A stretch of 64,000 bases of DNA. Origin: Allorhodopirellula heiligendammensis. Lineage in GTDB: Bacteria > Planctomycetota > Planctomycetia > Pirellulales > Pirellulaceae. The stretch lies in the NCBI RefSeq assembly GCF_007860105.1, contig NZ_SJPU01000001.1:1470118-1534117 (forward strand), read 5' to 3'. The notes beneath the pieces are model-generated. The model did no database searches and had not been told where the DNA came from. It saw nothing but the letters and a program-made list of their open reading frames with translations. Shown in pieces: positions 16,158 through 52,756 of the stretch (within the stretch, counting starts at the first letter, position 1; each line of letters opens with the position of its first letter). The position numbers were made by a program, and so were the translations under genes.

Positions 16158-16180
16158 AGTAGGGCAGGGCAGGGCGGGGC
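16158..16180 (+). repeat. Intergenic GGGCAGGGCAGGGCGG motif, copy 1
   Basis: AGTAGGGCAGGGCAGGGC followed by GGGGC, one of at least six intergenic copies of a 20-base motif with consensus ACCGCCCTGCCCTACCCCGC (this copy reads the complement). Other intergenic copies: 47151-47170, 49919-49938, 55191-55212, 59724-59744 and 61293-61314. Confidence 0.6.
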
Positions 16181-19351: not shown

Positions 19352-19473
19352 GCTGATCTAAGTAGCGTGTGGGAGAAAGGGAGAGGGCATGCTTCGTAGG
19401 ATGATACCGTTGCCTGTCCACAACGGTATCGCTCGGGACAATGGTCCCCAGCTATGGCGACGCAGGCCCGGGG

Positions 19474-20559: not shown

Positions 20560-20562
20560 TTG

Positions 20563-20603
20563 CTGTTAGCTACTAGCAGGAAGCTATTAGCTGCAGGCTA
20601 AGC
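20563..20603 (+). repeat. TAGC-rich palindromic repeat, copy 1
   Basis: CTGTTAGCTACTAGCAGGAAGCTATTAGCTGCAGGCTAAGC, quoted here only by its halves: CTGTTAGCTACTAGCAGGAA and GCTATTAGCTGCAGGCTAAG. Its reverse complement matches 26521-26562 over about 28 bases (AATAGCTTC...GCTAACAG). It begins 4 bases upstream of the TTG start of hisC. Confidence 0.55.
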
Positions 20604-26520: not shown

Positions 26521-26562
26521 GACTGGCTGCTAGCGAATAGCTTCTGGCTGCTAGCTAACAGC
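26521..26562 (+). repeat. TAGC-rich palindromic repeat, copy 2
   Basis: GACTGGCTGCTAGCGAATAG then CTTCTGGCTGCTAGCTAACA, matching the reverse complement of 20563-20603. It lies between sucC and sucD and can fold on itself through its TAGC repeats, so it might lower sucD expression relative to sucC or stabilise the upstream message; that is inference. Confidence 0.55.
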
Positions 26563-36842: not shown

Positions 36843-37087
36843 AACGATCCACTGCGACTGACGCGTTCAAATCGAACCCCCCGGCAAGCACGCTCACTCG
36901 AACGCACCCCATTTCTTCAAACCACTGGCATTGTACGTCATGTGAGTGCGAAAAATCCACCAGTTGCCCAATCCGATGCCCATCGCTAAGCTGCGATTCA
37001 CTCTGGTCAAGTTTCTCAAGAAATTTGGCTCGCAAACATGTAGGGATTTGCGGCCGCTTGCAGCCTCACTGCTAAAAAGCCATTACG

Positions 37088-38293
37088 ATGAAAACCAATT
37101 CTGCACAAACTCATTCCACCCCATCAATCGGCATCTCCACTCGTAGCGTCCATGGCGGCGAGCGGCATCAGAATTCGGAGGGGGCTCTCGCGAGCCCTAT
37201 TTACGGGGCGTCGACGTTTGCCTTCGATTCCACTGATGATCTGATCGAATTCGTCGAGGGCCGCAGCGATCGCGTCGAGTACGCCCGCTATGGCAACCCG
37301 AATGAACGGATCGTCGAAGCCAAGCTGGCTGCACTCGAAGGCGCCGAGGATGCAATTCTCTACTCCAGCGGCATGGCCGCCGTGGTAGGGGTGTTGTTGA
37401 GCCAGTTGTCCGCCGGCGATGAAGTCATCTTTTTTGATGAGTGCTACCACCGCAGTCGTGAGTTCTGCTCCGATCACTTGTCTCGTTATGGGATCGTCAC
37501 CCGCGAAGTCCGCACGGGTGACTTTGCCGCCATGGAAGCCGCGATCACTTCCAACACCAAAATGTTGGTGTCTGAGTCGCCCACCAACCCGCATCTCACC
37601 TGCGTGGATCTCGAAAAGTTCGCGGCCGTTGGCAAAACTCACGGGATCGAAACGCTGATCGATGCAACGTTAGCTACGCCCTATAACGTCAAGCCAATTG
37701 AATATGGTGTGGACTACGTCCTGCACTCGGCGACGAAGTATTTTGGCGGACACAATGATTTGTTGGCTGGCGTGATTTGCGGTAGCCGTGAAATGCTCAA
37801 GCCGGTTCGGGACTTCCGCGGTTACCTCGGCAGCGTCTGCTCGCCGCACAGTCTGTACCTGCTCGAACGGGGACTCAAGACGTTTGCACTGCGGATGGCT
37901 CGGCATAATGAAAACGGAATGGCTGTTGCCACGTTCTTAGAAAACCATCCCCGCGTCGGTCGTGTCTACTATCCTGGCCTTCCATCGCACCCTACCCATG
38001 CGGTGGCAGCGAAACAGATGAACGGGTTCGGTGGACTGATGACGTTCACGGTCAAAGACGCCGACGGCAAGGAGGCTTCCCAAGTCGTCGATGCGGTCAC
38101 GATACCGCGGATCGCAGCGAGCCTCGGTGGTGTCGAGTCGCTCATTGAGCAGCCGCTGGTGATGAGCTATCTGCACTACACGCCCGAGCAACGCCAGGCA
38201 GTGGGCATCGACGACAATATGATTCGCCTGTCCTGCGGCATCGAAGATTCAGCCGACTTGATCGCCGACCTCGATCAGGCTCTGAGCAAGTAG
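37088..38293 (+). CDS. metB: Trans-sulfuration enzyme (cystathionine gamma-synthase/lyase family)
   Basis: A 401-residue PLP enzyme of the Cys/Met metabolism family. It has SVHGGERHQNSEGALASPIYG near the N-terminus, YARYGNPNERIVEAKLAAL (PLP-phosphate and substrate contact), SSGMAAVVGVLLS, the pyridine-binding Asp in IDATLATPYN, and the Schiff-base Lys217 in HSATKYFGGHND. The C-terminal half has HPRVGRVYYPGLPSHP and SLGGVESLIEQP. The synthase, gamma-lyase and O-acetylhomoserine sulfhydrylase branches are hard to separate by motif; the symbol is therefore tentative. Either route handles methionine/cysteine interconversion in the cytosol. The stop codon TAG lies inside a repeat element. Confidence 0.85.
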   Translation: MKTNSAQTHSTPSIGISTRSVHGGERHQNSEGALASPIYGASTFAFDSTDDLIEFVEGRSDRVEYARYGNPNERIVEAKLAALEGAEDAILYSSGMAAVVGVLLSQLSAGDEVIFFDECYHRSREFCSDHLSRYGIVTREVRTGDFAAMEAAITSNTKMLVSESPTNPHLTCVDLEKFAAVGKTHGIETLIDATLATPYNVKPIEYGVDYVLHSATKYFGGHNDLLAGVICGSREMLKPVRDFRGYLGSVCSPHSLYLLERGLKTFALRMARHNENGMAVATFLENHPRVGRVYYPGLPSHPTHAVAAKQMNGFGGLMTFTVKDADGKEASQVVDAVTIPRIAASLGGVESLIEQPLVMSYLHYTPEQRQAVGIDDNMIRLSCGIEDSADLIADLDQALSK

Positions 38294-39010
38294 GATGGGA
38301 CCATCGTCCCGTCCGTGACCGCTCAACGCCCGTGACTGCGTTAGCCCGCGGCTGGCGGACACCGCAGATTGCTTTTCTAGATTGCTTTGGTGAAGGGCTG
38401 AAGACTTGGTCCACCCATGTTTTAGCGACCAGAAGAATCTCCCTAGCACGGCGTTGCCAGCTGCTGAACGCCAGGTTGACGCTGGAATACAAATTGACGA
38501 TACGAGCAAAGTCTTAAATAGAGCTAAGTCGTATTGTCCACATCGCCCTACGGTAGTTTCAATGGGTGTCGCCTTCAAATGGTCGATCGCGTTGATATCC
38601 GCTCCCTCGGCGACTGCCGCCGCGATTCGTTCATCCGCATTTCGCACCCCAGCTCTGATAATCTTGTGTAAAACGGTGTCACCGTGTCTGCCTGGCGCCG
38701 TGGGGACACCGCCATATTTCATCACCTCGAGAAATTGTGTTGAGAATTGCGATCGGGCGGCCCCATGCATCACCGTATCTCCCGATCGAAAGACGTTTGG
38801 CAAACCCAGCCTAGAAGTGTGGCGGACGTGGGGATCTACATCATTTTCCAACAGGACTAAGAATCTTTCGAGCTGGTTGTCTGAGAAGTTGGTACCCCAG
38901 ACGGACAATGACAGCAAAAACCATCGATTTTGAGGACAAGTCCCAGCTACTTGTGGTGTCGTGGCTAGGCAATCGGGGATTCGCCTCGGCGTATGCAGAT
39001 CGAGATACAC
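38249..39010 (-). pseudogene. Ankyrin-repeat gene remnant
   Basis: The frame (253 codons) holds two recognisable ankyrin-like units: GDTVMHGAARSQFSTQFLEV, then GDTVLHKIIRAGVRNADERI with AAAVAEGADINAIDHLKATP and IETTVGRCGQYDLALFKTLL, after a LERFLVLLENDVDP helix. Beyond about residue 168 the text turns into unstructured sequence that runs antiparallel into the end of the trans-sulfuration gene. A different frame after that point (SSVNLAFSSWQRRAREIL) may hold some sense, hinting at a frameshift. No good signal or start is seen at 39010. I read it as a broken ankyrin gene, not a working one, but a short intact protein is not excluded. Confidence 0.45.
38291..38330 (-). repeat. Two-hairpin repeat, partial copy at the end of metB
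   Basis: TAGGATGGGACCATCGTCCC continuing GTCC. GGATGGGA (38293-38300) pairs with TCCCGTCC (38307-38314). It is one member of the family with full copies at 40912-40979, 42137-42201 and 50441-50524, in opposite orientation. It provides the stop codon TAG of the upstream gene (38291-38293). Confidence 0.6.
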
Positions 39011-39044
39011 TTAAGCAGGTCGGGGGAAATGTTTCGGTATAACT

Positions 39045-39106
39045 CACGTAGGCGAGTCTCTCCGAGACTCGCAACTCTCAGCGTCTCGGAGAGACGCTGC
39101 TACGTG
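39045..39106 (+). repeat. Nested triple hairpin repeat
   Basis: Outer ends CACGTAG and CTACGTG pair, enclosing two further hairpins: GCGAGTCTC-tcc-GAGACTCGC (39052-39072) and AGCGTCT-cggag-AGACGCT (39080-39098). The two inner arms are also reverse complements of each other apart from a few bases, so the 62 bases can form one long hairpin or a cruciform-like three-stem structure. Single copy in this window. Confidence 0.65.
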
Positions 39107-39254
39107 GTTTCACCGAATTACTTGTGCGTACCTGCTTACGACGGCAGTATGAAAATTTGTAATCGGACGACCGGACGGTTATGCTAGCGAGCCCTCGCAA
39201 CGCTGCATCCGCGGCGTTCACCCATCTCGCCAACCTTCATTGAAAACTGTTCAC

Positions 39255-40709
39255 ATGACCGACCGACGAAACTTCTTGAAAACGTCAGCCACCGTGGCGG
39301 CCCTCGGTGCCTCCACACTTTCAGCCCAATCAGCCTCGGCCGCTGCGGGCAGCAATGAGCGGATGCGAATTGGATTCATCGGCCCCGGTGGCCGTGGCTT
39401 TGGTGCCCATGTGAAGTCGTTGTGCGAACTCCATGCGGCGGGGCGGGCGATTGATTTGGTCGGTGTTGCGGAGGTTTTTCAGGTCCAACGCGACCGCGTC
39501 GCGGATCATATCAAGAAGGAGACGGGCACTGATCCAGGCCGCTATGTTGACTATCGTGACATGATCGAGAAGGAGAATTTGGATGCCGTCTGCATCGGTA
39601 CTCCGGATCACTGGCACCACAAACAGACCATTGACGCGCTTGCTGCGGGACTGAACGTCTACTGCGAAAAACCCATGACCAAGACGGTCGAGGAAGCGTT
39701 CGACGTTGAAGACAAGTGGCGGGCCAGTGGCAAGGTGATGCAAGTCGGCGTGCAATCGACCAGTCTGCCTGTTTGGAACGAGGTGAACAAACTTCTGTGC
39801 GACGGCAAGCTTGGCAAGGTACTGGGATTCCAGACGGAATACTTCCGTAATTCCGATGTGGGGCAGTGGCGTTACTACAAACTCACTCCGGACATGACGC
39901 CCAAGTCCATTGACTGGGACCGTTGGCTCGGGCGTGAACATGATCTGGCCGAAGGCATGCCGTTCGACCGAGAAGTTTATAAGCAGTGGCGTCGGTTTTG
40001 GCCGTTCGGAAGCGGTATGTTCACGGATCTGTTCGTGCACCGCACCACCTCGATGCTCAAGGCGACGGGCCTGCGAGTCCCCGGACGAGTTGTCGGTGCT
40101 GGGGGGATTTTCCTTGAGTACGACGGGCGCGGTGTGCCTGACGTCGCGACCGTCGCGGCTGACTTTAATGAGGGCGTCCAAGGATTGGTCACCGCCACCA
40201 TGTGCAACGAAGAATCACGCGTTAACCAATTGATTCGCGGTCACTACGGGACGTTCGCATTCGGAAATGGCGAGGGCTTTGACGGATTCGACTTCATCCC
40301 CGAGCGGGGTCCCGTCACACACGTCCGTCAGGAAGCTGAACGCATCACCACCAAACCGGTGAAGAACACTACCTTGGCACACTTTGCGAACTGGCTCGAC
40401 GCCTGTGAAGCGAACGACCCATCGATGTGCAATAACCAACCGGATCTAGGAGCAGCTGCCATGTCAGTCGTGAACCTAGGAGCGCAAAGCTATCGCAAGG
40501 GCAAAGTGTACTTTGTCGATGATCGCAAGATCTCGGATGTCGACCCCGGCTGGGCCGCCAAATGGGAAGCCCGGTCGCTGGCAGGAGGACCGCCGTCACA
40601 CATTCCAGGCTGGAATGCCGGTGACTACGGCAGTACGCAATCGGACCCCGAATACATGAAGTACGGTGGGCCTTGGGTCGATGGAAAAGACCCCGCTGGC
40701 GGCGCCTGA
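39255..40709 (+). CDS. Gfo/Idh/MocA-family oxidoreductase, Tat-exported
   Basis: About 484 residues from the ATG at 39255; the TTG five codons earlier is a weaker start. The N-terminus is a Tat signal (DRRNFLKTSATVAALGAS) ending at SASA. The nucleotide-binding Rossmann part begins RIGFIGPGGRGFGAHVKSL, and the EKP motif lies in VYCEKPMTKTVEEA, with TPDHWHHKQT before it. A later TDLFVHRTTSML, where the family has its D-x-x-x-H catalytic pair, is followed by a C-terminal beta-sheet domain. These NAD(P)-dependent enzymes oxidise sugars or inositols. Export with bound cofactor fits the many planctomycete members. It is the first gene of a likely carbohydrate locus. Confidence 0.87.
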   Translation: MTDRRNFLKTSATVAALGASTLSAQSASAAAGSNERMRIGFIGPGGRGFGAHVKSLCELHAAGRAIDLVGVAEVFQVQRDRVADHIKKETGTDPGRYVDYRDMIEKENLDAVCIGTPDHWHHKQTIDALAAGLNVYCEKPMTKTVEEAFDVEDKWRASGKVMQVGVQSTSLPVWNEVNKLLCDGKLGKVLGFQTEYFRNSDVGQWRYYKLTPDMTPKSIDWDRWLGREHDLAEGMPFDREVYKQWRRFWPFGSGMFTDLFVHRTTSMLKATGLRVPGRVVGAGGIFLEYDGRGVPDVATVAADFNEGVQGLVTATMCNEESRVNQLIRGHYGTFAFGNGEGFDGFDFIPERGPVTHVRQEAERITTKPVKNTTLAHFANWLDACEANDPSMCNNQPDLGAAAMSVVNLGAQSYRKGKVYFVDDRKISDVDPGWAAKWEARSLAGGPPSHIPGWNAGDYGSTQSDPEYMKYGGPWVDGKDPAGGA

Positions 40710-41093
40710 TTTTTTGCTTGCAGTTGCTTGCACCGCGACTGTCATGCGCGTGGCCGTATCTATTTTTTAGCAACCACGGATGGTCCTGTCCGCGACGAGC
40801 CCGCTTGGTCCGGGACGTAGGTTCCCGGTCTACGTTACCCTTATCCGCGTTGCCCCGTACGGGCGACAGCTAACGCCGTGACCGATTCTCGTGCGGTGTT
40901 TTGCTGGATTTGTAGCTCGGAACAATGTCCCGAGCGTGCAGAAGAATGGTCGCGGACGGGACGATGCTCCCATCCTGCGTTTAATAAAATCGCTCACGGC
41001 GGTGGGCGGCAGCCGCGCTCATCCCGTGCTGACACGGAGGACGCTGGCATTGAATTCACGGATCACGCAGTCGCATCTCACTAGGCAACCACC
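40710..41093. other. Intergenic region between the two Gfo/Idh/MocA genes, with repeats
   Basis: 384 bases. It has an early T6 run after the first gene (40709-40716 area), a CCGGGA...TCCCGG dyad near 40818-40836, the perfect 10-bp palindrome CCCGTACGGG near 40854 and a full copy of the two-hairpin repeat at 40912-40979. No coding frame looks real. The second gene is preceded by a short A/C-rich leader. Confidence 0.5.
40912..40979 (+). repeat. Two-hairpin repeat, full copy A
   Basis: First dyad: TAGCTCGG...CCGAGC (40912-40935). Second dyad: GGACGGGA (40954-40961) with TCCCATCC (40968-40975) around CGATGC. The linker GTGCAGAAGAATGGTCGC matches the same segment of copy B in outline. Confidence 0.65.
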
Positions 41094-42107
41094 ATGGACT
41101 CCCATTCAATCCGATTCGCACTCTTCATGGTCTGTTCTTTGGTCGGCACAGTCGATCGTGCGATCGCGGAGCGACCTTCGACTCCATTGCGGGCTGGCAT
41201 CATTGGGATGGACGCTCACGCATTGCCATGGGTGCAAATCATCAATGATCCCAAGACAACCGGCGAGCTAGCTGAGATGAAAGTTGTCGCTGGCTTTCCC
41301 GGCGGCAGTACCGATATCCCAGAAAGCATGGAACGCATCGCAGCGAACACTCAACCGATCGCGGACCTCGGCGTCGAGATTGTTGATTCGATCGATGATC
41401 TGTTGCCGAAAGTCGATGTGGTGTTGATGCTGAGCATTGATGGTCGTAAACATCTGGACGAGGCGAACAAGGTTTTTGCGGCGGGTAAACCAGTCTTCAT
41501 TGATAAACCAGTCGCCGGTTCGCTTGCTGAGGCGATCGAAATCTTCCGCTTAGCTCAACTTCATCAAGTGAAATGCTTCTCCAGTTCCGCGCTCCGATTC
41601 GCGCCCAAAACAGTCAACATTGGTGAGCGTGAGAAATTGGGTGAGGTAGTGGGTTGTGATCAATACGCACCCTGTACGCTCGAACAACATCATCCTGATT
41701 TCTTCTGGTACGGTATCCATGGCGTTGAACCGCTATTCACCATTATGGGCAGTGGCTGCGTTTCAGTATCTCGCATCCATACCAAAGGAACCGACATGAG
41801 TGTGGGCGTTTGGCAGGATGGACGGATTGGCACGTTCCGCGGCATCCGTGACGGCCAGCGTGGCTACGGAGCGACCGTCTTCGGTACCCAAGGAATCGTT
41901 CAAGCAGGTGCGTTCGAAGGCTATGAACCATTGATTGTCGAGATCATTCGTTTTTTCAAGACAGGCGAACCACCGGTAACACCGGAACAGACTTTAGAGA
42001 TTTTTGCGTTCATGGAAGCTGCCGATGAGAGCAAACGCCGTGGTGGTGCTCCCGTGACACTCGACAGCGTGATGCAGAAAGCGCGAAGCTTGGCCGCTGA
42101 AAAATAG
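41094..42107 (+). CDS. Gfo/Idh/MocA-family protein, exported
   Basis: A 337-residue protein with a signal peptide (IRFALFMVCSLVGTVDRAIA) and a Rossmann start at LRAGIIGMDAHALPWVQII. The GxGxxA-like glycine pattern is altered (GMDAHA), so cofactor binding may be weaker or different. VFIDKPVAGSLAEAIEIF replaces the EKP motif as DKP. The later part keeps the beta-sheet fold (YGIHGVEPLF) with a possible catalytic His in the GIHG turn. It lies after the larger family member and before the propeller-haem protein, so the three are likely to act on the same substrate outside the cytoplasm. Confidence 0.8.
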   Translation: MDSHSIRFALFMVCSLVGTVDRAIAERPSTPLRAGIIGMDAHALPWVQIINDPKTTGELAEMKVVAGFPGGSTDIPESMERIAANTQPIADLGVEIVDSIDDLLPKVDVVLMLSIDGRKHLDEANKVFAAGKPVFIDKPVAGSLAEAIEIFRLAQLHQVKCFSSSALRFAPKTVNIGEREKLGEVVGCDQYAPCTLEQHHPDFFWYGIHGVEPLFTIMGSGCVSVSRIHTKGTDMSVGVWQDGRIGTFRGIRDGQRGYGATVFGTQGIVQAGAFEGYEPLIVEIIRFFKTGEPPVTPEQTLEIFAFMEAADESKRRGGAPVTLDSVMQKARSLAAEK

Positions 42108-42136
42108 GGCGAGAGATCGGTGCTCGGATGATAACG

Positions 42137-42201
42137 TAGCTCAGGACGATGGTCCTGAGCGAGCAAGTGCGACCCGGACGTGACGAAGGTTCCATCCTAC
42201 G
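42137..42201 (+). repeat. Two-hairpin repeat, full copy B
   Basis: First hairpin GCTCAGGAC-gatg-GTCCTGAGC (42139-42160), perfect 9-bp stem. Second arm: GGACGTGA...TTCCATCC, partly decayed. Placed between the second oxidoreductase gene and the propeller-haem gene, where it could attenuate or protect the transcript. Confidence 0.65.
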
Positions 42202-42223
42202 ATTTATAACTGAGAATTGATAC

Positions 42224-45200
42224 ATGATGAGCAACGCTTCCATCCGCTTCGTAATCGCATTTTTGTTAAGCACATTGTGTGGCGTAAACTCGCCAGCCAT
42301 GGCAGCGGAGTGGGAAACCGTGTCTGTTCCCGGCGGCCAGGAATTCACCGGCAACGCGTGGTACCGAACCTGGTTCAAACCACATCCAACGTTCTTCACT
42401 CAACATGAACGCGACCTGTTCGGAGAATCGGTGATCCTCAACATTCGCGATCTCCCTGGGGCTCACGAAGTCTATCTCAACGGTACAAAGATCGGCGGCG
42501 GGGGATCCTTTCCACCGGAGTATGTCGATGGCCGAGCCGGAAACCATCGCTATAAAATACCTTCGGGCAGCTTGGTTCCTGACCAATGGAACGAACTCAC
42601 CGTGCGAGTCTACACCCCGGACGGAGATGGTTCGGTAGAGCAGGGTGGCTTCCTCTCCGAGGCGCCGTTTGTGATGAACTACTTTTGGGAATGTGTTTTC
42701 GCGGGCGACTGGGAGTTTCGACGAGGCGAGGATCCACCCGAATTCGCTGGTGCTGTGCAGACGAAGCCCACCACCTCGGCATTTGACTCGTTTCATGAGT
42801 CGAATCGCGTCCTCGGGGAAGCCGACACGCTGGTCCACGGTGAAAAAATGTCTCCCGCCGATTCGTTGGCGGCGATGAAAACACCGGAGGACCTGACGGT
42901 GGAGTTGATGCTCAGTGAGCCATTGGTTGCCCAGCCGACTCACTTCAGTTTTGACTCCCGCGGGCGACTGTGGGTGGCTCAGTACCGTCAGTATCCGTAT
43001 CCGGCAGGCCTGAAGATGATCAGTCGGGACAAGTACTATCGCTCACACTACGATCGTGTACCGCCACCGCCACCGCATCATGACCGTGGCCGCGACGTGA
43101 TTTCGATCCATGAAGACACTGATGGCGACGGCGAATACGACAAGCACTCCGTGTTTCAAGATGAACTCAATATGGCCAATGCGGCCGTTCGCGGGCGTGG
43201 CGGTGTGTGGGTCATGCACACGCCCTATCTGTTGTTTTATCCCGACGCGAATTTCGACGATGTGCCCGATGGGCCTCCCGTTGTCCATCTCCAAGGCTTT
43301 GGACTGGAAGACTCTCATTCGGTCGCCAACGGCTTGGTGTGGGGCATGGATGGATGGCTCTACGGTGCCCAAGGGAGCACGACGAGCTGTCACGTTACCC
43401 GACCTGGGATGGATGCCCCCGACGATCCAGGCATTTATTTTCAAGGCTGTATGGTCTGGCGATATCACCCCGAGACCCATCGATTCGAGATCTTCTCGGA
43501 AGGCGGTGGCAATAACTTTGGTTTGGAGGTCGATTCCGGCGGACGACTCTTCACAGGCAACAACGGCGGCCAAACACGCGGTTGGCATTATCTCCAAGGC
43601 GGGTTGCACCTGATGCAGGGAACGACCCCAAACAAATTTGGCCCCGTCCGAAACGAGTTCGCCTTCGGACACCTGCCTTACATTGCCAACGAACAGCCCA
43701 TTCCACGATTCACACACTTCGCCACGCTGGTCGAATCGACCGCGATGCCGCCGAATTATCACGACACGTTCTTCAGCGTCGAGCCACTACACAATTTTGT
43801 GATCGCCAGCAAACGACTCGTTGATGGGGCGACGTTCACGACCAGCGATACCGAAAAAGTCCTGACGTCCGAGGATCCCGCTTTTCGGCCAGTGTACATC
43901 GCCAATGCGCCCGACGGCTCGATCCTGGTTGCTGACTTTTACGAGCAGTATATCGCCCACGGCCAGCACTACCAAAGTCAGATCGATCCCACGACGGGAC
44001 GCATCTTCCGCTTACGCGGCCGAGACGAACCACTGGAGAACGACCTGAATCTAGATGCCAAGGACACCGACGAGCTGATTGCACTACTCGATCACCCCAA
44101 TCGCTGGCATCGACATACCGCCGTGCGACTATTGGGTGAGCGAAAAGATCCGACATCGGCCGCGAAACTGCGCCAACTCGTCATCGACGGCAGTTCCCAC
44201 GAATCGTTGGCGGCGTTGTGGGCACTATATCAAGGGTTCGGTCTTGACCCTGAGACCGCTTTGACAGGCGTCGCTCACGACGTGCCCCTGCTCCGGTACT
44301 GGACCATTCGATTCATTTGCGACGATGTTGGATTCGCTAACAAACGAACCGTGATTGGATTGACCGACAGTCTTGGTGGGCCGGCGGTAGACGATCCGAC
44401 GCGGGTCGCCGATGACCTATTCGCCGCCATGCTGGCCCAGACCGAAATCGAGGACAACGCCGAAGTCCGATCTCAGATTGCGGCATCCGCGCGTCGGCTG
44501 CCTGTCGATCAAGCGCTGCGTTTAGTGACTGCTGTCCTGGCTCATGACGAAGACGTTAATGACAAGTACGTACCGCTGCTGTGTTGGTGGGTACTCGAGA
44601 ACAACCTCGATCGGGATCGCGACGCGATCATGGCAATGTTCGAAGACCCTGCGTTTCGCCGCAAACCGATGGTCGTCAAACACATCCTTTCGCGCATGAT
44701 GAATGGACTCGCCCTCAAAGGTGGCAACCATGACTTGCAACAGTGTGCCCGATTGCTGGAACTCGCCGACGGGCAAGCACAAACGGACGCATTGCTCGCG
44801 GGTTTTGAGCTCGCATACGCCGGGCGACGGATGGTGGGGCTGCCTGACCAACTTGTCCGGGCACTGGTCGACAGCGGTCGCTCATCGCTCGAATTGAATG
44901 TGCGTCTGGGTGATGAATCGGCCCGGGACGAAGCGATTGGGTTGCTGCGAAACCGCGAGGCAGACAGTCAGACGCGAATTGTGATCGCGAGAGTCCTCGG
45001 CGAGGTCAAGGCACACGAGGCGCTAGGAAGTCTGCTCGACGTATCGGTCTCCGCCACCGACCCAGAGCTCCAGCGAGCCTCGCTGACAGCTGTTTCGGTC
45101 TTCGAAGAGCCGGCGATTGGTGAGCGGTTGGTCAGCGAATTTGGCACCTTCGCCAACGAGGTTCGCCCCGCCGTCTTCGATTGCCTCCTCAGCCGCACCG

Positions 45201-45826
45201 CGTGGACGCGCCAGATGATCGATGCCATTTCGACTGGCAAAATTGCCGCTGATGCCATCCCGAGCGACGTGGTCGAGCAACTCAGGCGGCATGGCGATGC
45301 GAAAATAGCCAGCCTCGCGGTGGAGCAATTCGGAGCGAGCCAAGAGCACAACCCAGCGGAATCGATAAGGGAGATCGAGCGAATCCGCGCGGTGGTCGAA
45401 GATGGTACTGGGAACCCCTACGCAGGCGAGGCCATTTTCATGACACAATGTGCCGCCTGCCACCGGCTATTCCACAAAGGCGGTAACGTCGGCCCCGACT
45501 TGACGCCGTACCAACGAGGAAATTTGGACACTTTACTATCGAGCGTCGTACAACCGAGCGCTGAAATTCGAGAAGGGTTCGAGCAGGTTACGCTACTGAC
45601 ACTCGATGGTCGCCTCCTGACCGGATTCTTAACCGACCAAGACAATCAGATTGTTACGTTGCGAGGAAAGTCGGGTGAGGATATCCGCGTCGAACGCGAC
45701 GACATTGAATTGATCGAACCGGTCGGTCGCAGCCTCATGCCAGACGGGTTGCTCGATGAGCTCACCGACGAACAACTACGCGACTTTTTCGCTTACCTGC
45801 GAATCTCACAACCTATTAGCAACTAA
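42224..45826 (+). CDS. PVC-type propeller-HEAT-cytochrome c protein with N-terminal jelly-roll
   Basis: A 1200-residue exported protein. After a signal peptide (IRFVIAFLLSTLCGVNSPAMA) comes a galactose-binding-like jelly-roll (residues about 30-165, WYRTWFKPHP, HEVYLNGTKIGGGG). It is followed by the GDH-like beta-propeller (about 220-610), with FDSRGRLWVAQYRQYP, GRGGVWVMHTPYLLFYPD and ANGLVWGMDGWLYGAQGS. HEAT-type repeats follow (about 625-1030). The C-terminal cytochrome c has CAACH at 1076-1080 and GGNVGPDLTPY, and a closing SLMPDGLLDELTDEQLRDFF. This is the PVC haem-binding architecture. The propeller-plus-haem combination suggests a sugar or alcohol dehydrogenase that hands electrons to the haem. 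The jelly-roll may bind carbohydrate. Confidence 0.88.
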   Translation: MMSNASIRFVIAFLLSTLCGVNSPAMAAEWETVSVPGGQEFTGNAWYRTWFKPHPTFFTQHERDLFGESVILNIRDLPGAHEVYLNGTKIGGGGSFPPEYVDGRAGNHRYKIPSGSLVPDQWNELTVRVYTPDGDGSVEQGGFLSEAPFVMNYFWECVFAGDWEFRRGEDPPEFAGAVQTKPTTSAFDSFHESNRVLGEADTLVHGEKMSPADSLAAMKTPEDLTVELMLSEPLVAQPTHFSFDSRGRLWVAQYRQYPYPAGLKMISRDKYYRSHYDRVPPPPPHHDRGRDVISIHEDTDGDGEYDKHSVFQDELNMANAAVRGRGGVWVMHTPYLLFYPDANFDDVPDGPPVVHLQGFGLEDSHSVANGLVWGMDGWLYGAQGSTTSCHVTRPGMDAPDDPGIYFQGCMVWRYHPETHRFEIFSEGGGNNFGLEVDSGGRLFTGNNGGQTRGWHYLQGGLHLMQGTTPNKFGPVRNEFAFGHLPYIANEQPIPRFTHFATLVESTAMPPNYHDTFFSVEPLHNFVIASKRLVDGATFTTSDTEKVLTSEDPAFRPVYIANAPDGSILVADFYEQYIAHGQHYQSQIDPTTGRIFRLRGRDEPLENDLNLDAKDTDELIALLDHPNRWHRHTAVRLLGERKDPTSAAKLRQLVIDGSSHESLAALWALYQGFGLDPETALTGVAHDVPLLRYWTIRFICDDVGFANKRTVIGLTDSLGGPAVDDPTRVADDLFAAMLAQTEIEDNAEVRSQIAASARRLPVDQALRLVTAVLAHDEDVNDKYVPLLCWWVLENNLDRDRDAIMAMFEDPAFRRKPMVVKHILSRMMNGLALKGGNHDLQQCARLLELADGQAQTDALLAGFELAYAGRRMVGLPDQLVRALVDSGRSSLELNVRLGDESARDEAIGLLRNREADSQTRIVIARVLGEVKAHEALGSLLDVSVSATDPELQRASLTAVSVFEEPAIGERLVSEFGTFANEVRPAVFDCLLSRTAWTRQMIDAISTGKIAADAIPSDVVEQLRRHGDAKIASLAVEQFGASQEHNPAESIREIERIRAVVEDGTGNPYAGEAIFMTQCAACHRLFHKGGNVGPDLTPYQRGNLDTLLSSVVQPSAEIREGFEQVTLLTLDGRLLTGFLTDQDNQIVTLRGKSGEDIRVERDDIELIEPVGRSLMPDGLLDELTDEQLRDFFAYLRISQPISN

Positions 45827-45839
45827 ATTGATTGCCAAA

Positions 45840-45859
45840 GAACAAGGCCGCTAACTTGT
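45840..45859 (+). terminator. Weak hairpin after the propeller-haem gene
   Basis: AACAAG-gccgctaa-CTTGTT, 6-bp stem, 13 bases after the stop codon and followed by AAAG. No T-run, hence low weight. Confidence 0.25.
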
Positions 45860-45981
45860 TAAAGATCAATACAGGCGGCACGTCATCACTGGGTAATGAA
45901 TCCTGTCGCGGCATGCTGCCGTCGCTGGTGCAACTCTAGTCGACCACGTCAAACGGCCTTCCCACTCACAAAAGAACCGAC

Positions 45982-47139
45982 ATGATTCAAAGTCTTCTGC
46001 TGTCCATCGCCTTGGCATTGCTCCTCGCCAGTCCCGCGTATTCGCAGCTCGTGATCGACGCCAGCAAGTACGACTCGCTGCAAGCAGCTGCCGATGCGAT
46101 TCCGTCTGCAGGCGGTGTGCTACGGATTCCCGCAGGCGAGTACGAGATCACTCAGCCACTGCGCATCAAAACCGGCGACACACGTGTCGTGGGAGATGGC
46201 ACAGCGACTCATATCATTAATCAAAATACGGATGGTCAACCCGCGATCTTGATCGAGAACCCAGCCTATGCGAGTAAATCCACTCCACCGAAAGAGCGTC
46301 TCTGGCGAGTCAACCTCGCCAATCTGCGCGTCACGGGAAATAATAAAAGTGGAGCGGGAATCGAAGCCCGCTATATCGAGGAGATCTTCGTCCACGGTGT
46401 GACCAGCAGCTACCATGGCGGTGATGGGCTGAAACTTCACTATTGCTATGAAGACCCACGGATCAGCAACAATTTGTTTACATATAACAAACACGCTGGT
46501 TTGCAAATCGAAGCCTGTCACGACATTATCGTGTCAGCCAACCAGTTCGAAGAAAACCAGGACGGCGTTCGCTGCATCGATTCGTTTAACCTCACCATGA
46601 GCGGAAATAATTTAGACGACCATCTCGGCGATGGGTTGGTGATCGAAAATACGTATGGCAATGTTATTGCGTCCAACATGATCGAAGAGTGCCAAGGATG
46701 GGCCATTGTCCTGGATCGCGATTGCTATGGAACGACTGTTTCAGCCAATGTCATCGCCCATGATTTTGGCGGTGGGATTGACTTACGCGACGCTCACGGA
46801 TGTGCGATTTCGGCGAACACGTTCACAATTGTGAAGAATGCGGCGATCGCAGTTCGCGAATCATCCGCCAGCATCACGATTAGTGCCAATAACTTCAGTG
46901 ACACCTGGATTGGCAACGATCCTGATGGCAAACCACTGCAAAAACGTAGTGACGAGTCATCGAAGACCGAGCAGACCCCCAACGAAGCAACGGGTGTCCT
47001 CCTGCAAGATTGCGAAGGCATCGTCATTTCGGGAAACCTCTTCTCAAGGCTGGCTACTGAGTCTGTTCGCCAAGAGGGTCACTGCCAACGTATCTTGATC
47101 AACAACAACGGTGAAATGCGACGTGGTGATCAAAACTGA
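45982..47139 (+). CDS. Secreted right-handed parallel beta-helix protein
   Basis: A 385-residue protein with a signal peptide (SLLLSIALALLLASPAYS) and a pectate-lyase-superfamily start (IDASKYDSLQAAADAIPSAG with GVLRIPAGEYEIT). From about residue 110 it is built of rungs of around 22 residues with repeating N and I ladders (NLFTYNKHAGLQIEACHDI, SANQFEENQDGVRCIDS, SANVIAHDFGGGIDLRDAHG). A typical carbohydrate-binding or cleaving beta-helix fold is clear; the catalytic residues are not. It follows the propeller-haem gene in the same direction and belongs with the locus. Confidence 0.82.
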   Translation: MIQSLLLSIALALLLASPAYSQLVIDASKYDSLQAAADAIPSAGGVLRIPAGEYEITQPLRIKTGDTRVVGDGTATHIINQNTDGQPAILIENPAYASKSTPPKERLWRVNLANLRVTGNNKSGAGIEARYIEEIFVHGVTSSYHGGDGLKLHYCYEDPRISNNLFTYNKHAGLQIEACHDIIVSANQFEENQDGVRCIDSFNLTMSGNNLDDHLGDGLVIENTYGNVIASNMIEECQGWAIVLDRDCYGTTVSANVIAHDFGGGIDLRDAHGCAISANTFTIVKNAAIAVRESSASITISANNFSDTWIGNDPDGKPLQKRSDESSKTEQTPNEATGVLLQDCEGIVISGNLFSRLATESVRQEGHCQRILINNNGEMRRGDQN

Positions 47140-47150
47140 TTGGATCTGCC

Positions 47151-47170
47151 GGGGCAGGGCAGGGCGGTCC
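47151..47170 (+). repeat. Intergenic GGGGCAGGGCAGGGCGG motif, copy 2
   Basis: GGGGCAGGGCAGGGCGGTCC in the 51-base gap between two converging genes, in the same orientation as the copies at 16158 and 49919. Confidence 0.6.
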
Positions 47171-47190
47171 TTGCGAACCGCACCAGCCAC

Positions 47191-48834
47191 TCAGTCCAGC
47201 AAAATCTTCCAGCGGCCTGCCGAACGCTGAGCGTGGAACTTGGCGCTAGTACCTCGGATATTCAAAATTAAACCGTTCGCGTTGACTTGCGCTGTCCAAT
47301 TGGATTGCTGCGAGGGAGCCATCGCAATGACTTGGTCGAGCGCAAGAATCAGGCGACCACGATAGGTCGCCAACTCCGAGATGAGCTGCTGTCGGGGCTG
47401 AGTATGGTCCGCTGTCGACTCATTGAACAACACGCACTCGTCAACGAATGTCGCGAACTCTTTCTGCTCGAGGTACCCCAACGCAAGTTGCATGTCGTCC
47501 ATGAATGTGGCCATCATGCCGTCGAGACGCTCCTGCTTCGTTCTTAACGCTCGATAGGCGTCTTCGCGATTGACTTTCTCAAGTGGAATCCGCCGGACCT
47601 TACCGTCGGACATCAATAGAACGAGCAAATTATTGTCGACGTCGATCTGCCTCGCTTGAATGCTGCCCCGACCTTTGACATCCCGCCACGTTTCCAATGG
47701 AAAGGATTCAAATTCCTTGAGTTGTGACTCAGTGAAAGATTGTTGCGGCGGCTGAAGTACGTCGAGATTAACGACCTCGCGTGCTGCTCGCGTGCCCAAC
47801 GCTCCCCAAATCCCGTACGGGCTTGGCGAACCTGGTGGAGCGGGCGTTCCGTTTGGGTAGTCTCCGATCGCGACGGACGGACTGTCTGCCTGGCCGGCAT
47901 CGATCGTATCAGATACAAACGCGACCTTGCCATCGGACATCAACACATGCACGCCACCGTCATGATGACTCGAGGCCGACATCACGCCTTCTAAGAGCCC
48001 TTTGTCCGAAGTACAGGAGGGCGAATTTGGTGGCAGAATGGTTTGGAATCCGATCGATAGAAGTGATCCGTCGGCCCACACTGCCGGCCGGGGATCATCC
48101 CAGAAGTCGGTCGCGGCATCTTGATGAGCGACTAGGCAGCGTGACGGATCAGCGATCATTCCCGTGACATTCTTAGCGGTACGGGTCCCCGTGAGCTTGC
48201 CCTCGGTCATCATTAGAGTATTTGAGAGTCCATCTAGAACGTCTCGAAAGCGGACTTGATGTTGACGAATGAACAACCCACGTGTGGTGGCTCGGTTGTC
48301 GCCATAAGGCGGTTCAGCATCCAACCATGCCGCTCCGACGTTTTCGATTGCGTCGCCATAATTCAAAAGGTAACTCGATGCGACTTTGTTTTCATCATGT
48401 GCCGGATCGTCGGGGCACACGAGCGCGTCAGGACGCCGCGACCAAGGCGAGTATTTGCTGGGTGGATACCAAGGCACCGGCCCCATTGCTGGAAAATACT
48501 CACCGTTCTCCGACCTCGGATTGGCGATATCCTGCCACAATGCCTGCTGTTCGATAAATGGTGTCACACCGACTAAACCACACAGCCGATTGGCATTTCC
48601 GAGCATCGGTTCGGACTCACTGCCCGCTGATGTGCCGCCGCTTCCAAAGGGCAATTGGTTATACGCCGAGTGATAATTATGGAAACCAAGCCCAATCTGC
48701 TTGAGATTGGCGGAACACGAATTCATTCGCGCCGTCGCCCGCATGCGTGAGACGGACATGGACAGTAGCGAGACCGCAACGAGAGCGAGCATCGCTCCCC
48801 CAGTCAAATCAATTAGCGTCAGTCGACGGCTCAT
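47191..48834 (-). CDS. DUF1559-type protein with C-terminal SHD1-like region
   Basis: About 547 residues from the ATG at 48834, four codons after an upstream ATG. It starts with a short basic leader and hydrophobic helix (RLTLIDLTGGAMLALVAVSLLS), but it lacks the usual FTLVELLV text, so processing as a pilin is doubtful. The DUF1559 signatures are there: SCSANLKQIGLGFHNYHSAY, DGLSNTLMMTEGKL and HVLMSDGKVAFVSD. After about residue 365 there is an SLA1-homology-domain-1-like stretch: ETWRDVKGRGSIQARQIDV, LLVLLMSDGKVRRIPLEKVN, REDAYRAL. The remaining 130 residues are helical and end in a small beta part. SHD1 is a module first known from yeast endocytic adaptors and is common in planctomycetes. 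Confidence 0.78.
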   Translation of the reverse strand: MSRRLTLIDLTGGAMLALVAVSLLSMSVSRMRATARMNSCSANLKQIGLGFHNYHSAYNQLPFGSGGTSAGSESEPMLGNANRLCGLVGVTPFIEQQALWQDIANPRSENGEYFPAMGPVPWYPPSKYSPWSRRPDALVCPDDPAHDENKVASSYLLNYGDAIENVGAAWLDAEPPYGDNRATTRGLFIRQHQVRFRDVLDGLSNTLMMTEGKLTGTRTAKNVTGMIADPSRCLVAHQDAATDFWDDPRPAVWADGSLLSIGFQTILPPNSPSCTSDKGLLEGVMSASSHHDGGVHVLMSDGKVAFVSDTIDAGQADSPSVAIGDYPNGTPAPPGSPSPYGIWGALGTRAAREVVNLDVLQPPQQSFTESQLKEFESFPLETWRDVKGRGSIQARQIDVDNNLLVLLMSDGKVRRIPLEKVNREDAYRALRTKQERLDGMMATFMDDMQLALGYLEQKEFATFVDECVLFNESTADHTQPRQQLISELATYRGRLILALDQVIAMAPSQQSNWTAQVNANGLILNIRGTSAKFHAQRSAGRWKILLD

Positions 48835-48996
48835 TTTCTTCCCCAATTATCGTTTACGGAGTTTGAATGTTCCTTCATTGTAGCGGATTGCAGATTCGCC
48901 AATGCGATCGACACGGACACGTATCGGGGACGGAAGTAGATGAGTCCGAAGAGACGCTCGCTTCGATTGAGCTGATCAAAGATATGTTTTCGCAGC

Positions 48997-49908
48997 TCAG
49001 TCCAGCACATCATCCGGTAAGGGCTCGCCGCCTTGCGGTGTGATGAGGGCGTTGACGGTCATGGGCGCTGTCGTTTCAGGAAGAAAGTGGCTTCGTCCAT
49101 CGACGGTGACAACGCATGCTCCACCGTCGGTCACACCGCCGAGATCTGTTCCGCTGGATGAATTGATTGCACCGGCAGATCTTGCGAAATCGAGGTCAGC
49201 CGGTTCCGTCCAAATGCTCGGCGCGGAGCTCTCAACTAATAGGATGGTTTGTGTGGCACCATCGATTACTTGCTTAGGCCCAAGTGGCCCCGAACTGGGA
49301 AATAGCGTTCCCGCTCCGGTAACCAGATGATACACCGTCTCCGTAGCCCATGAATTGGTATCGGGATGACGGTAGATCGTTGGCATGCCGCGATAACTAA
49401 TCTGTTGGTTTTGAGCACTGTCCCAGGACGCACCGAGATCAAATTGGTCGTAGAGTTCTTCTTCGCCGAGGTAGGGTAGGATTGCTACCCGCCACGACAA
49501 CAGCGGATTACCGGCGTGATCGAGAATCGCCGGGGCAGGGTAGATGCCATGGTCAGCAGCATAGGCGTTGAGCGCTTGAGCAATCTTTTCTAAGTTCTTC
49601 ATGCTGCCCATTCGTGTTCGCCCCGTCCGCAACTTTGCCGCCGTTGTACCGCCGACACGCACGATCGCGATTCCAGCGGCACCGACGATCAATAGCATCA
49701 CCACAGCGACCGCCACCCACGCCACCGAGCGTTTGCGTCGCGTTCGCGCGGGACGCTGCACATGCGGACCATTCGCGCGGGCACCGGGTGCAAAATTGGG
49801 CAGTGTGATCTCATGACCGCAAACCACGCACTCACCAGACTGGCCGCTGAATGCATCGTCGACCTCCGTGCGTGTGTCGCAATGTGGGCAGGTAAATAGG
49901 TAGGGCAT
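48997..49908 (-). CDS. Zinc-ribbon, single-pass membrane DUF1559-like protein
   Basis: About 303 residues from the ATG at 49908, which begins MPYLFTCPHCDTRTEV; a longer start is less likely. The first 40 residues form a zinc ribbon (CPHC...CVVCGHE). A basic linker and one transmembrane helix (VAWVAVAVVMLLIVGAAGIAIV, about 60-82) follow. The outer part resembles the DUF1559 fold: SMKNLEKIAQALNAYAADHG, LSWRVAILPYLGEEELYDQF and late VVTVDGRSHFLP. The architecture thus puts a DNA- or protein-binding type zinc ribbon inside and a pilin-like domain outside. It is transcribed toward the SHD1-bearing gene with about 160 bases between them. Confidence 0.75.
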   Translation of the reverse strand: MPYLFTCPHCDTRTEVDDAFSGQSGECVVCGHEITLPNFAPGARANGPHVQRPARTRRKRSVAWVAVAVVMLLIVGAAGIAIVRVGGTTAAKLRTGRTRMGSMKNLEKIAQALNAYAADHGIYPAPAILDHAGNPLLSWRVAILPYLGEEELYDQFDLGASWDSAQNQQISYRGMPTIYRHPDTNSWATETVYHLVTGAGTLFPSSGPLGPKQVIDGATQTILLVESSAPSIWTEPADLDFARSAGAINSSSGTDLGGVTDGGACVVTVDGRSHFLPETTAPMTVNALITPQGGEPLPDDVLD

Positions 49909-49918
49909 GCGATTTAGA

Positions 49919-49938
49919 AGAGGGCAGGGCAGGGCGGC
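49919..49938 (+). repeat. Intergenic GGGCAGGGCAGGGCGG motif, copy 3
   Basis: AGAGGGCAGGGCAGGGCGGC, between the zinc-ribbon gene start and the dtd start. Confidence 0.55.
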
Positions 49939-49990
49939 TGTGAGGGAATACAATGATCACCTTCCTACCCTATCTTAGCGAGACTGATCA

Positions 49991-50443
49991 GTGAAAGTCA
50001 TCCTGCAGCGAAGCCTGCAAGCCAGCGTGCAAGTTGAAAATGAGATCGTCGGTCAGATCGAACAGGGTTTGGTCGCGTTAGTTGGGGTAGGGCAGGGCGA
50101 TAGCGAAGAAACCGTGCGTGCATTGGCTGAGAAAACGGTGAACCTGCGGATCTTTTCTGACGAGAACGGCAAGATGAACCGGAACGTGATCGAGTCGGGA
50201 GGCGGTATTCTCGTGATCAGCCAATTCACCTTGCTGGCTGATTGCCGGAAGGGCCGTCGCCCTTCGTTCACAGACGCCGCGCCACCGGATCGCGCAAAGG
50301 AGCTCTACGAGCTTTATGCCGAGCACCTCGCGGCGCGAAACATCTCCGTCGCCCGTGGCATCTTCGCGGCCGACATGCAGGTGAGCTTGATCAACGACGG
50401 CCCGGTCACGATTATCCTCGACTCCGCGGAGATCCAAGCGTAG
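49991..50443 (+). CDS. dtd: D-aminoacyl-tRNA deacylase
   Basis: Dtd removes D-amino acids (and Gly from tRNA-Ala) from tRNA in the cytosol, a homodimer acting through RNA-based chemistry. The 150-residue length is typical. Motifs: MKVILQRSLQASVQV at the N-terminus, LVALVGVGQGDSEE, the SQFTLLADCRKGRRPSF signature (residues about 77-93), and the NDGPVTIILDS C-terminus with the Gly-cis-Pro. The stop codon lies at the start of a two-hairpin repeat. An intergenic GC-rich repeat lies just upstream. Confidence 0.96.
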   Translation: MKVILQRSLQASVQVENEIVGQIEQGLVALVGVGQGDSEETVRALAEKTVNLRIFSDENGKMNRNVIESGGGILVISQFTLLADCRKGRRPSFTDAAPPDRAKELYELYAEHLAARNISVARGIFAADMQVSLINDGPVTIILDSAEIQA

Positions 50444-50524
50444 GTTCGGGCCATCGACCCGCGGGAGCAGATCGGTGCAGGCGAGGGAGATATCTCGGAC
50501 GGGATAATCGGTCCCATCCTATGA
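50441..50524 (+). repeat. Two-hairpin repeat, copy C
   Basis: It begins with the dtd stop codon TAG, then GGTTCGGGCCATCGACCCGC in place of the first dyad. It ends with GGACGGGA (50497-50504), TAATCGG, TCCCATCC (50512-50519). The linker is about 40 bases and longer than in the copies at 40912 and 42137. Confidence 0.6.
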
Positions 50525-50525
50525 G

Positions 50526-51386
50526 CTAACGCCACTCATCGCGGGGGAGGGTAGGGCGGTCGCGTGGATCAGCGATCCGCTTGGAATCGGATGGACCTGT
50601 TTGCCAAGCTTCCATGGGCGAAAACCCGGAGGCGGGTTGGCTTTGCTGCGAGGAACGCGATGGCAAGGTATATGGGCCGGGCCCAGCCGACCAGTCCGAT
50701 TCGGGTATGGAGTATCGCTCGCGTTCCAATCGCACCCGCTGGCGAAGCCGATCGAGGATTCCATGGTCACCCCACGCGACGTAACACAGCAACACGAGTT
50801 TGCCCCACACCGACACATTCGCCCACCAATCTTTCCCAAAGAATTTCAGTGCGGTTCCAAATGATTTTTTCACCCGCATCCCGCGACCACTGAAATCGAG
50901 ACTCCAGATCTCGTCCAAAATTAAATGGGTCAAAAAACCAACCAACACCGCGAGCGACTTGTAGACTCGAATCGCCTCGCTGGGGCAAGGCATGATCAGG
51001 TATGCGGCCACGCATGCACTGAACGCCGCCGGGATGCTGTGCCACATGCCGCGGTGGACTGTGTAACGCCGAAAAAATTCGACGACGACGAAACGAATCG
51101 TGACGTAAATCAGCATCGCCGCCAGCGCCATCGCTTCGTGAGAAAGCCCCATATCACGAAATCGTTCCACCATCAAAATGGGGATCACTGCTGACAGGAA
51201 CAGCGTCGTTTCGCGTAACGGAACGCCCGTGTCGGAATCGAGATCAGGCAGCATTCCCGCAACGCTACACAAGCCACCGGCAAGCAACGCACTTTCGATC
51301 GACATGCCCTGCGTGGCCACGCCCCAATACCCGTAGACAACGCCCACGACGGTGCTGGTCGAAATATGGGTTTTGAAGCCAGCCAA
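50526..51386 (-). CDS. YdjM/DUF457-type membrane-bound metal-dependent hydrolase
   Basis: A 286-residue inner-membrane protein with the family's start MAGFKTHISTSTVVGVVYG, metal ligands in AGMLPDLDSDTG and YTVHRGMWHSIPAAFSA, and four to five hydrophobic segments in the first 170 residues (TLFLSAVIPILMV, LAVLVGFLTHLILDEIWSLD). A long polar C-terminal tail from residue 215 is specific to this protein. The family includes LexA-regulated YdjM of E. coli, but the reaction is unknown. It is convergent with dtd; the tail-coding end carries a GGGTAGGGCGG segment, which is probably part of the coding sequence. Confidence 0.78.
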   Translation of the reverse strand: MAGFKTHISTSTVVGVVYGYWGVATQGMSIESALLAGGLCSVAGMLPDLDSDTGVPLRETTLFLSAVIPILMVERFRDMGLSHEAMALAAMLIYVTIRFVVVEFFRRYTVHRGMWHSIPAAFSACVAAYLIMPCPSEAIRVYKSLAVLVGFLTHLILDEIWSLDFSGRGMRVKKSFGTALKFFGKDWWANVSVWGKLVLLCYVAWGDHGILDRLRQRVRLERERYSIPESDWSAGPGPYTLPSRSSQQSQPASGFSPMEAWQTGPSDSKRIADPRDRPTLPRDEWR

Positions 51387-51718
51387 GAGAAGAACAGCGA
51401 TACAGGAGGAACGGCGGCGCCCGGAGCAGAGCAGGGCGATCGTAAAAAATTTGAAGAGGATTCACCCCTGCGATTAGCAAACTTCAGCCGCCTGTCGCCA
51501 CACCGGAAAATTGATCGATTGCTCTTCGCCCTGCTCCGTTCGTTCTGGTACAAGGCGAGGGTTACTTGCCGTTTTGGCGCTTAGCGGCGTGCTGATTTAC
51601 TAATCTGACGCGCCAGAGAGGCAGCCCATCTCGCTCCTCGCTGGCATCTCGGGTTAGTTTTTCATCAAAATAACTCTGTCCGAATGGATAGGCCCATTTC
51701 ACCAGCAAATTTGTTACT
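51387..51718. other. Divergent region before the CvpA gene
   Basis: About 330 bases, including a palindromic repeat at 51596-51658. The early part has a CGGCGCCCGGAGC patch and the rest no coding frame with typical codon use. Confidence 0.45.
51596..51658 (-). repeat. 63-bp palindromic repeat, copy 2
   Basis: Begins TTTACTAATCTGACGCGCCA and ends TGGCATCTCGGGTTAGTTT. The reverse complement aligns with 28676-28738 across the whole length at roughly 80% by eye. Both copies keep the outer TAAC/GTTA ends and GCGCCAG/CTGG arms. Confidence 0.65.
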
Positions 51719-52432: not shown

Positions 52433-52479
52433 AACAAGGACCGATCGGCGACGCGCCGGTCGGCCGGCGCTGCCGTCGG

Positions 52480-52567
52480 GCCCCAGCCCACTGAGCCGTC
52501 AGGCGCCAGCCCACCGAGCCGTCAGGCGCCAGCCCACCGAGCCGTCGGGCGCCAGCCCACCGACCGA
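52480..52567 (+). repeat. 23-bp tandem repeat, nearly four units
   Basis: Unit GCGCCAGCCCACCGAGCCGT followed by CAG, starting at 52480 (variant GCCCCAGCCCACTGAG), 52503, 52526 and 52549 (partial). The spacing is exactly 23. Single-base differences separate the units. Not a multiple of 3 and outside genes. Confidence 0.75.
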
Positions 52568-52756
52568 TATCCCAAGCGCACCTCGAGAGCACGTCACAAC
52601 GACCTGCGAAGCGCATCGCAACGCAGCACACGCATCACACTGGCGGAGCGGTTCGGCCTAATCTAGCTAAAACGAGCGTTTCAAGCGGATTGAATACAAC
52701 ATAAGAGGCATTATCGGACGTTGCGGGGCGGTTGGAATCGCTTGCCCATTCCTGCT

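Follow-up and report, generated by a model that had tools for sequence, protein, structure and literature searches.

A family of GTAG-tagged REP dimers in Allorhodopirellula heiligendammensis, very probably spread by a RAYT transposase

The 64,000-nucleotide stretch of DNA analysed here (the window) carries a short repeat of paired hairpins whose copies lie between genes, and at two of these copies the TAG at the edge of the repeat is also the stop codon of a gene. The question raised by this locus is whether the repeat is a device that serves gene ends or a mobile element whose copies have survived there. The first-pass annotation favored the former, proposing that the element inserts at, or is kept at, gene ends, perhaps for termination or mRNA stability.

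Architecture and genomic census of the repeat

The element consists of two GTAG-tagged REPs arranged head to head as a dimer (BIME/REPIN). Each REP is a 25-nt imperfect palindrome with GTAG at its 5′ foot, and the two types are REP-A, GTAGGATGGGACCATYGTCCCGTCC, and, on the opposite strand, REP-B, GTAGCTTGGGACCATTGTCCCGAGC. The four copies reported by the first-pass annotation were all found in the window (Table 1), with the true start one base earlier than had been given, at the G of GTAG, and the “first dyad” and “GGACGGGA...TCCCATCC arms” described there correspond to REP-B and REP-A within a single dimer. The copy at 38291, which had been called partial, is in fact a complete REP-A with an intact, uninterrupted 9-bp stem (-15.4 kcal/mol, z -4.1 for the RNA fold against shuffles). 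In addition, the window contains a fifth copy, a REP-B, to the left of which a GTAG-led hairpin of other sequence begins at 19396. The dimer that starts at 42136 is 65 bp long and belongs to the commonest length class in the genome (9 of 29 pairs). A degenerate pattern, derived post hoc from the copies, gave six matches in the window, representing five places, one of them matched on both strands, as compared to a mean of 0.14 matches in 100 shuffles of the window. An Rfam search gave no matches in the window at gathering thresholds.

Table 1. REPs and REP dimers of the window, scored with covariance model R1
Feature	Position	Strand	Score and component REPs
REP-B, additional fifth copy	19431..19455	-	33.6 bits
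Single REP-A	38290..38314	+	44.7 bits
REP dimer, GTAG ends outward	40912..40978	.	REP-B 40912-40936 (+), 26.3 bits; REP-A 40954-40978 (-), 35.4 bits
REP dimer, GTAG ends outward	42136..42200	.	REP-B 42136-42160 (+), 32.8 bits; REP-A 42176-42200 (-), 32.8 bits
Diverged REP dimer, between dtd and next gene	50440..50523	.	Right REP 22.0 bits; left REP 10.2 bits

With as many as three mismatches allowed, a 21-base probe matched 55 times across the genome, and reading the same probe backward gave no match. Covariance model R1 was built from 49 distinct REPs, four of the 53 available having been excluded from alignment A1 (two with a better reverse-complement REP, one with an indel and one identical at 27 nt). 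The whole-genome covariance search, which the first-pass annotation had suggested as a check, revealed further copies: R1 gave 125 matches when E values up to 10 were admitted, of which 98 REPs at 69 sites were kept at E up to 0.0804 and the 27 above this cut-off were dropped. As R1 scored 150 of 3055 candidates, 98 may be a lower bound. All 29 pairs of REPs less than 300 bp apart are oriented +-, that is, with GTAG outward, and 27 of them measure 65-135 bp, the remaining two being 187 and 262 bp long. Single REPs occupy 40 of the 69 sites; in the account of REPIN populations given in PMC8049555, single REPs are usually decaying remnants.

The GTAG foot is nearly invariant, with G1, T2, A3 and G4 present in 52, 50, 48 and 53 of 53 REPs, respectively, and base 4 pairs with C25 in 44 of 49. 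The stem above it displays compensatory changes among the 49 distinct sequences: pair 5-24 is GC in 25, CG in 14 and UG in seven, pair 6-23 is AU in 26 and UA in 17, and the two pairs covary between the REP types. Changes on both sides of a pair were counted in 41 cells versus 18.0 in shuffles. At pair 7-22, 37 of 53 REPs have T.G, a wobble on the GTAG strand and an A.C mismatch on the other strand. At most sites, the shared sequence ends at GTAG, except for a C at position -1 in 66 of 97.

Gene context and use of TAG as a stop codon

Genes were called by a simple caller trained on the window's genome. None of the 68 classified sites lies inside a called gene when margins of 10 bp are allowed; the remaining site of the 69, C5:67496, has no called neighbors. 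One gene reads through a REP, ending 6 bp beyond it, and the 5′ end of another overlaps a REP by 15 bp; at C6:62471, the read-through gene was passed over in the assignment of neighbors. The test for enrichment at 3′ ends proposed by the first-pass annotation was run: 3′-facing gene ends lie within 30 bp of a site in 33 of 69 cases, as compared to 17.5 ± 2.7 under uniform placement in the same gaps, and 5′-facing ends do so in 11 of 67. Convergent gaps hold 12 of the 68 sites, close to their 16.7% share of intergenic bases, and are thus not favored; divergent gaps hold 11 of 68. Given this genome-wide spread, extragenic location and 3′ bias, the copies are neither confined to the window nor placed at random with respect to genes. 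The suggestion that the element inserts at, or is kept at, gene ends therefore holds for the 3′ bias and the location outside genes, but not for its reading as a termination device (see below).

The two stop codons noted at element edges are confirmed by the gene calls. TAG 38291-38293 ends a metB-type gene (37088-38293, 401 aa) whose product belongs to the cystathionine gamma-synthase/methionine gamma-lyase family, and TAG 50441-50443 ends dtd (49991-50443, 150 aa), which encodes a D-aminoacyl-tRNA deacylase. Across the genome, the TAG of a REP is the stop codon at nine of 69 3′-facing sides, where uniform placement gave a mean of 0.5 and at most five in 2000 draws, and where the 3′ end of a gene overlaps a REP, the TAG is used in frame in nine of ten cases (P 3.6e-4). 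The dtd copy is a tenth stop case, outside the set of 98 (right REP, E 0.215). When ordinary GTAG words that lie between genes or at stops are counted, 34 of 482 (7%) supply stop codons, a base rate that predicts about seven stops for 98 REPs (P of nine or more, 0.25), and in other planctomycete genomes TAG is the stop at two of 91 3′-facing sides versus 0.5 expected. The enrichment in stops is thus strong against uniform placement and weakened against both the GTAG base rate and the other genomes.

Eight of the nine TAG-stop proteins were searched against NCBIfam, the one left out being a sulfatase-like protein named by eye. Six of them (MetB-type, TsaB, BioF-type, FliI, RecJ and GcvH-type) match their family profile almost to its end, stopping no more than a few positions short, indicating that these six genes are not truncated. 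Of the other two, one has methyltransferase-domain matches only and one is without a match. The dtd product matches to position 145 of 146 of its profile.

Relatives of the family and REP-flanked transposases

The family is sparse among close relatives. At E up to 0.001 and with stricter filters, matches were found in two of 59 related genomes: one match in the 12 congeners (in G006), one dimer in 24 family members (in G028) and none in 23 genomes of the same order. A repeat search of five congeners, with the limit relaxed to E 0.1, gave 3, 0, 0, 0 and 2 matches. Named genomes, possibly without the window's own species among them, were also scanned with an exact pattern, and at least 119 stretches were recovered. 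Among the matches listed, at least 117 stretches fall in at least 11 planctomycete assemblies, several of them with a lake or pond in the title, and one stretch each comes from a Streptomyces (L239) and a Polyangiaceae MAG (L251). In each of the 11 planctomycete assemblies, between 14 and 135 matches were found at E up to 0.1. The 117 loci contain 233 REPs, with neighbors oriented +- in 85 cases, -- in 11, ++ in seven and -+ in none. These loci were found by exact pattern, which biases them toward well-kept copies, and their gene context was counted with L239 and L251 omitted and 33 of 130 sites near locus ends left unclassified. Over 92 classified sites, 3′-facing ends lie within 30 bp in 25 of 91 cases versus 17.1 ± 2.9 (largest draw, 28), and 5′-facing ends do so in two of 93; five of 97 sites are intragenic.

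The copies of the window's genome are diverged. Its 98 REPs comprise 88 distinct 25-mers with a mean of 2.4 mismatches from the consensus, a few of them shifted by indels, and its 27 strict-pattern copies are of 17 kinds, as compared to 27 kinds among 154 strict-pattern copies in the 11 assemblies. Three copy-bearing intervals were aligned with one congener, G006. The dimer at C2:2442281 is clearly absent at the syntenic place in G006, and at C2:2446080 G006 retains a decayed orthologous REP-B with four mismatches, which implies that the family predates the split from G006 and is nearly gone there. Over the three intervals, the comparisons neither demonstrated recent movement nor yielded an exact junction. 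In comparisons for empty sites, the region downstream of G006 metB is rearranged, and G006 dtd has TAG as its stop with no clear REP there and a diverged spacer. For gene 41127-42107, congener relatives are 48-50% identical, with one short piece at 56%, and no empty site was obtained. In the third of the intervals aligned with G006, the REP dimer C2:2440282-2440362 (L084) stands at a synteny break, its two sides matching different G006 contigs.

A RAYT flanked on both sides by REP-A/B, or a remnant of one, was found in three of the 11 other planctomycete assemblies within the subset of transposase matches examined, which came from a search with the NCBIfam RAYT model (30 loci) and then with the L304 protein as query (30 loci). 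In LacPavin MAG_52_12 (L324), the RAYT match at 1501-2169 lies between dimers at 1397-1485 and 2202-2289, which contain the consensus REP-A twice, the consensus REP-B once and a one-mismatch REP-B once. In Pirellula sp. CoA8_C32 (L323/L304), a 225-aa RAYT lies between REP-B copies, identical to the consensus except for C16, and REP-A variants GTAGGCTGGGACCATTGTCCCGGCC. In Pirellula sp. Tobar2m-G36 (L338/L347), a RAYT remnant lies between two consensus dimers; its pieces are 78% and 67% identical to the L304 protein, and the middle is missing. The L324 and L304 proteins are 67% identical to each other, and both keep the HUH residues H131 and H133 and the tyrosine Y191. The flanked RAYTs fall below the NCBIfam RAYT cut-off (78 and 66 bits versus 80). 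The other 26 loci from the L304 query are 27-48% identical, and none has REP-A/B within three mismatches; at least seven of them (L327, L329, L332, L339, L342, L346 and L351) stand between other GTAG palindromes. That related RAYTs are flanked by differing GTAG palindromes argues that a given RAYT tends to be associated with a REP of its own. Searched against the PDB, the L324 RAYT had a single match (E 0.029, named P43), which was taken as chance.

In the window's genome (assembly 97.6% complete, 35 contigs), no RAYT adjoining REP-A/B was found. With Pfam Y1_Tnp, six of its own transposases and 30 other loci were recovered, none with REP-A/B in the flanks, and a tblastn search of five of its own transposases against the REP loci found two distant ones only. 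The nearest homologue of the L304 protein in this genome (C2:475829-476407, L318) is 34% identical and is flanked by dimers of GTAGCAGCGTCTCTCCGAGACGCTG and GTAGCCGAGTCTCTCCGAGACTCGG. The window also holds a dimer of a second GTAG REP family at 39048-39103, with stems GCGAGTCTCTCCGAGACTCGC / CAGCGTCTCTCCGAGACGCTG, and this dimer has the first stem of the C2:475829-476407 flanks and a close variant of the second; the RAYT at C2:475829-476407 likely serves this second family. The second family has the same dimer architecture as REP-A/B, and its RAYT shares 34% identity with the REP-A/B-flanked one, whereas its stems differ from REP-A/B and its own RAYT is still in the genome. A second RAYT of this genome, at C2:1142321, lies between GTAGGGCCGGTTCC.. 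dimers. Within C2:1140872-1144243 (L006), a RAYT (NF047646, 178 bits) is accompanied by about six copies of its own REP dimer, GTAGGGCCGGTTCCCACCGGCC, arrayed in tandem with a unit length of roughly 235 bp.

REPs of this type have been described. Di Nocera et al. (2013, PMC3733652) report REPs of the GTAG and CGTC types from eight phyla, with GTAG REPs in the PVC superphylum, Planctomycetes being among the hosts, and, in R. baltica, several families and many tyrosine transposases. The GTAG REPs described there form head-head heterodimers, show a 3′ bias and have termini that “often provide” a TAG stop. Similar to these, REP-A/B combine a GTAG foot with a short palindrome in many copies, form head-head heterodimers, are intergenic and near 3′ ends, supply TAG as a stop and flank RAYT genes. 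Unlike them, REP-A/B have no cognate RAYT that could be found in the host genome, which is not disqualifying since published REP families can, by the same account, also be without one. REP-A/B is therefore a GTAG REP of an already published kind, 3′ bias and TAG stops included, the likeness to the 24 published families being drawn from their description. In literature on RAYTs with Planctomycetes or Rhodopirellula, no description of the REP-A/B family was recognized, and the core letters of REP-A/B were not found in the literature texts searched.

For E. coli TnpAREP, PMC8266576 describes strand-specific recognition of GTAG and of stem irregularities. The RAYT flanked by REP-A/B resembles the TnpAREP/BIME system as a putative single-strand HUH/tyrosine enzyme, and the conserved T.G pair 7-22 is a strand-specific irregularity of the kind that TnpAREP uses. 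According to the same paper, E. coli REPs differ in having a two-base mismatch bulge and cleavage at CT, where REP-A/B has one T.G pair and favors C, not CT, before GTAG, and the flanked planctomycete RAYT is a longer protein than TnpAREP.

Probable mobile origin of the family and competing readings

We consider it very probable that REP-A/B is a family of GTAG-tagged REP dimers (BIME/REPIN) that was spread by a RAYT. During a single-stranded DNA phase the GTAG strand would fold, and the RAYT would recognize GTAG and the irregular stem, cut, and paste copies elsewhere. Surviving copies would lie mostly behind genes, where harm is least, and a copy abutting a gene end in frame would end translation with its own TAG. 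The cognate RAYT would have been present once in the lineage and since been lost, leaving decaying orphan copies. In fact, the copies look like such orphans, given that no RAYT closer than 34% was found in the window's genome. Nunvar et al. (2013, PMC3686654) model the decay of REPs once their RAYT is lost, and the diverged copies together with the lack of a close RAYT are as expected from that model, which likewise has many degraded copies and no cognate RAYT found; its species are Pseudomonas and Stenotrophomonas, whereas here a RAYT with matching REPs occurs in other planctomycetes. Mobility, loss of the transposase and any role in RNA are what we infer from these observations. Counted against this explanation are the single REPs at 40 of 69 sites, the five intragenic sites in other genomes and the link to a RAYT, which comes from other genomes and not from the window's own.

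Could the hairpins instead be RNA elements, 3′ stabilizers or terminators kept by selection, with the transposase link incidental? The 3′ bias would fit such elements, although it is weaker in other genomes than here, as would the stable hairpin at 38290, the G.U wobble on the GTAG strand and the in-frame use of TAG at nine of ten overlapping gene ends. In the region 37000-51500, however, ten terminator-like calls were obtained where shuffles gave 15.0, none of them at the four copies, and no T-run follows the stems of these copies, so that the reading as a termination device was rejected. The gene-strand folds of two of the four window elements are also poor: that of the dimer at 50440-50523, on the + strand, is no better than shuffles (z -0.57), and that of another is weak (z -1.5). 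The near-absence of the family from 12 congeners with the same genes, the occurrence of the same REPs on both sides of RAYTs and the sites between divergent genes likewise speak against RNA elements, which makes this reading quite improbable; a RAYT-mobilized REP dimer tolerated behind genes accounts for the data more simply. The case is a warning against taking hairpin repeats with TAG edges at 3′ ends for terminators. It is also unlikely that orphan REPs were co-opted after RAYT loss as gene-end punctuation, with GTAG giving an amber stop and the hairpin an mRNA 3′ boundary. If they were, loss of a copy would lead to read-through of genes including those for RecJ, FliI, TsaB and the BioF-type and MetB-type proteins.

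Least probable, and to be regarded as very remote, is that the dimer is only the core of a longer non-autonomous element that has terminal inverted repeats of its own. Four sites, including 40912, share 27-73 bp outside GTAG at 73-89% identity, and outer arms CGCCGTGA.CGAT can be seen by eye from both sides. These are four of 69 sites, however; in two other pairs the shared stretch is no more than 17 and 26 bp, and elsewhere the shared sequence stops at GTAG, bar the C at -1. In the window, the sequence around the dimer at about 40874-41009 is common to C7:24553, C3:729686 and C2:1311135.

As a RAYT-spread family, REP-A/B would be a planctomycete REP family tied to a particular RAYT clade, and about 100 copies persisting without a matching RAYT would provide a natural test of REP decay after transposase loss. 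The L324-type enzyme and its exact palindromes are a candidate for biochemistry outside Proteobacteria.

Other repeats were also observed in the window. A GC-rich motif, GGGCAGGGCAGGGCGG, or its complement CCGCCCTGCCC..CCC, occurs at 16162, 20510, 49922, 55187, 59718 and 61287. A tandem repeat with a 23-bp unit, GCCGTCAGGCGCCAGCCCACCGA, and spacings of 23, 23 and 23 lies at 52472-52586, and a TAGC-rich inverted repeat pair of 31 nt, 84% complementary, is formed by 20562-20592 and 26532-26562.
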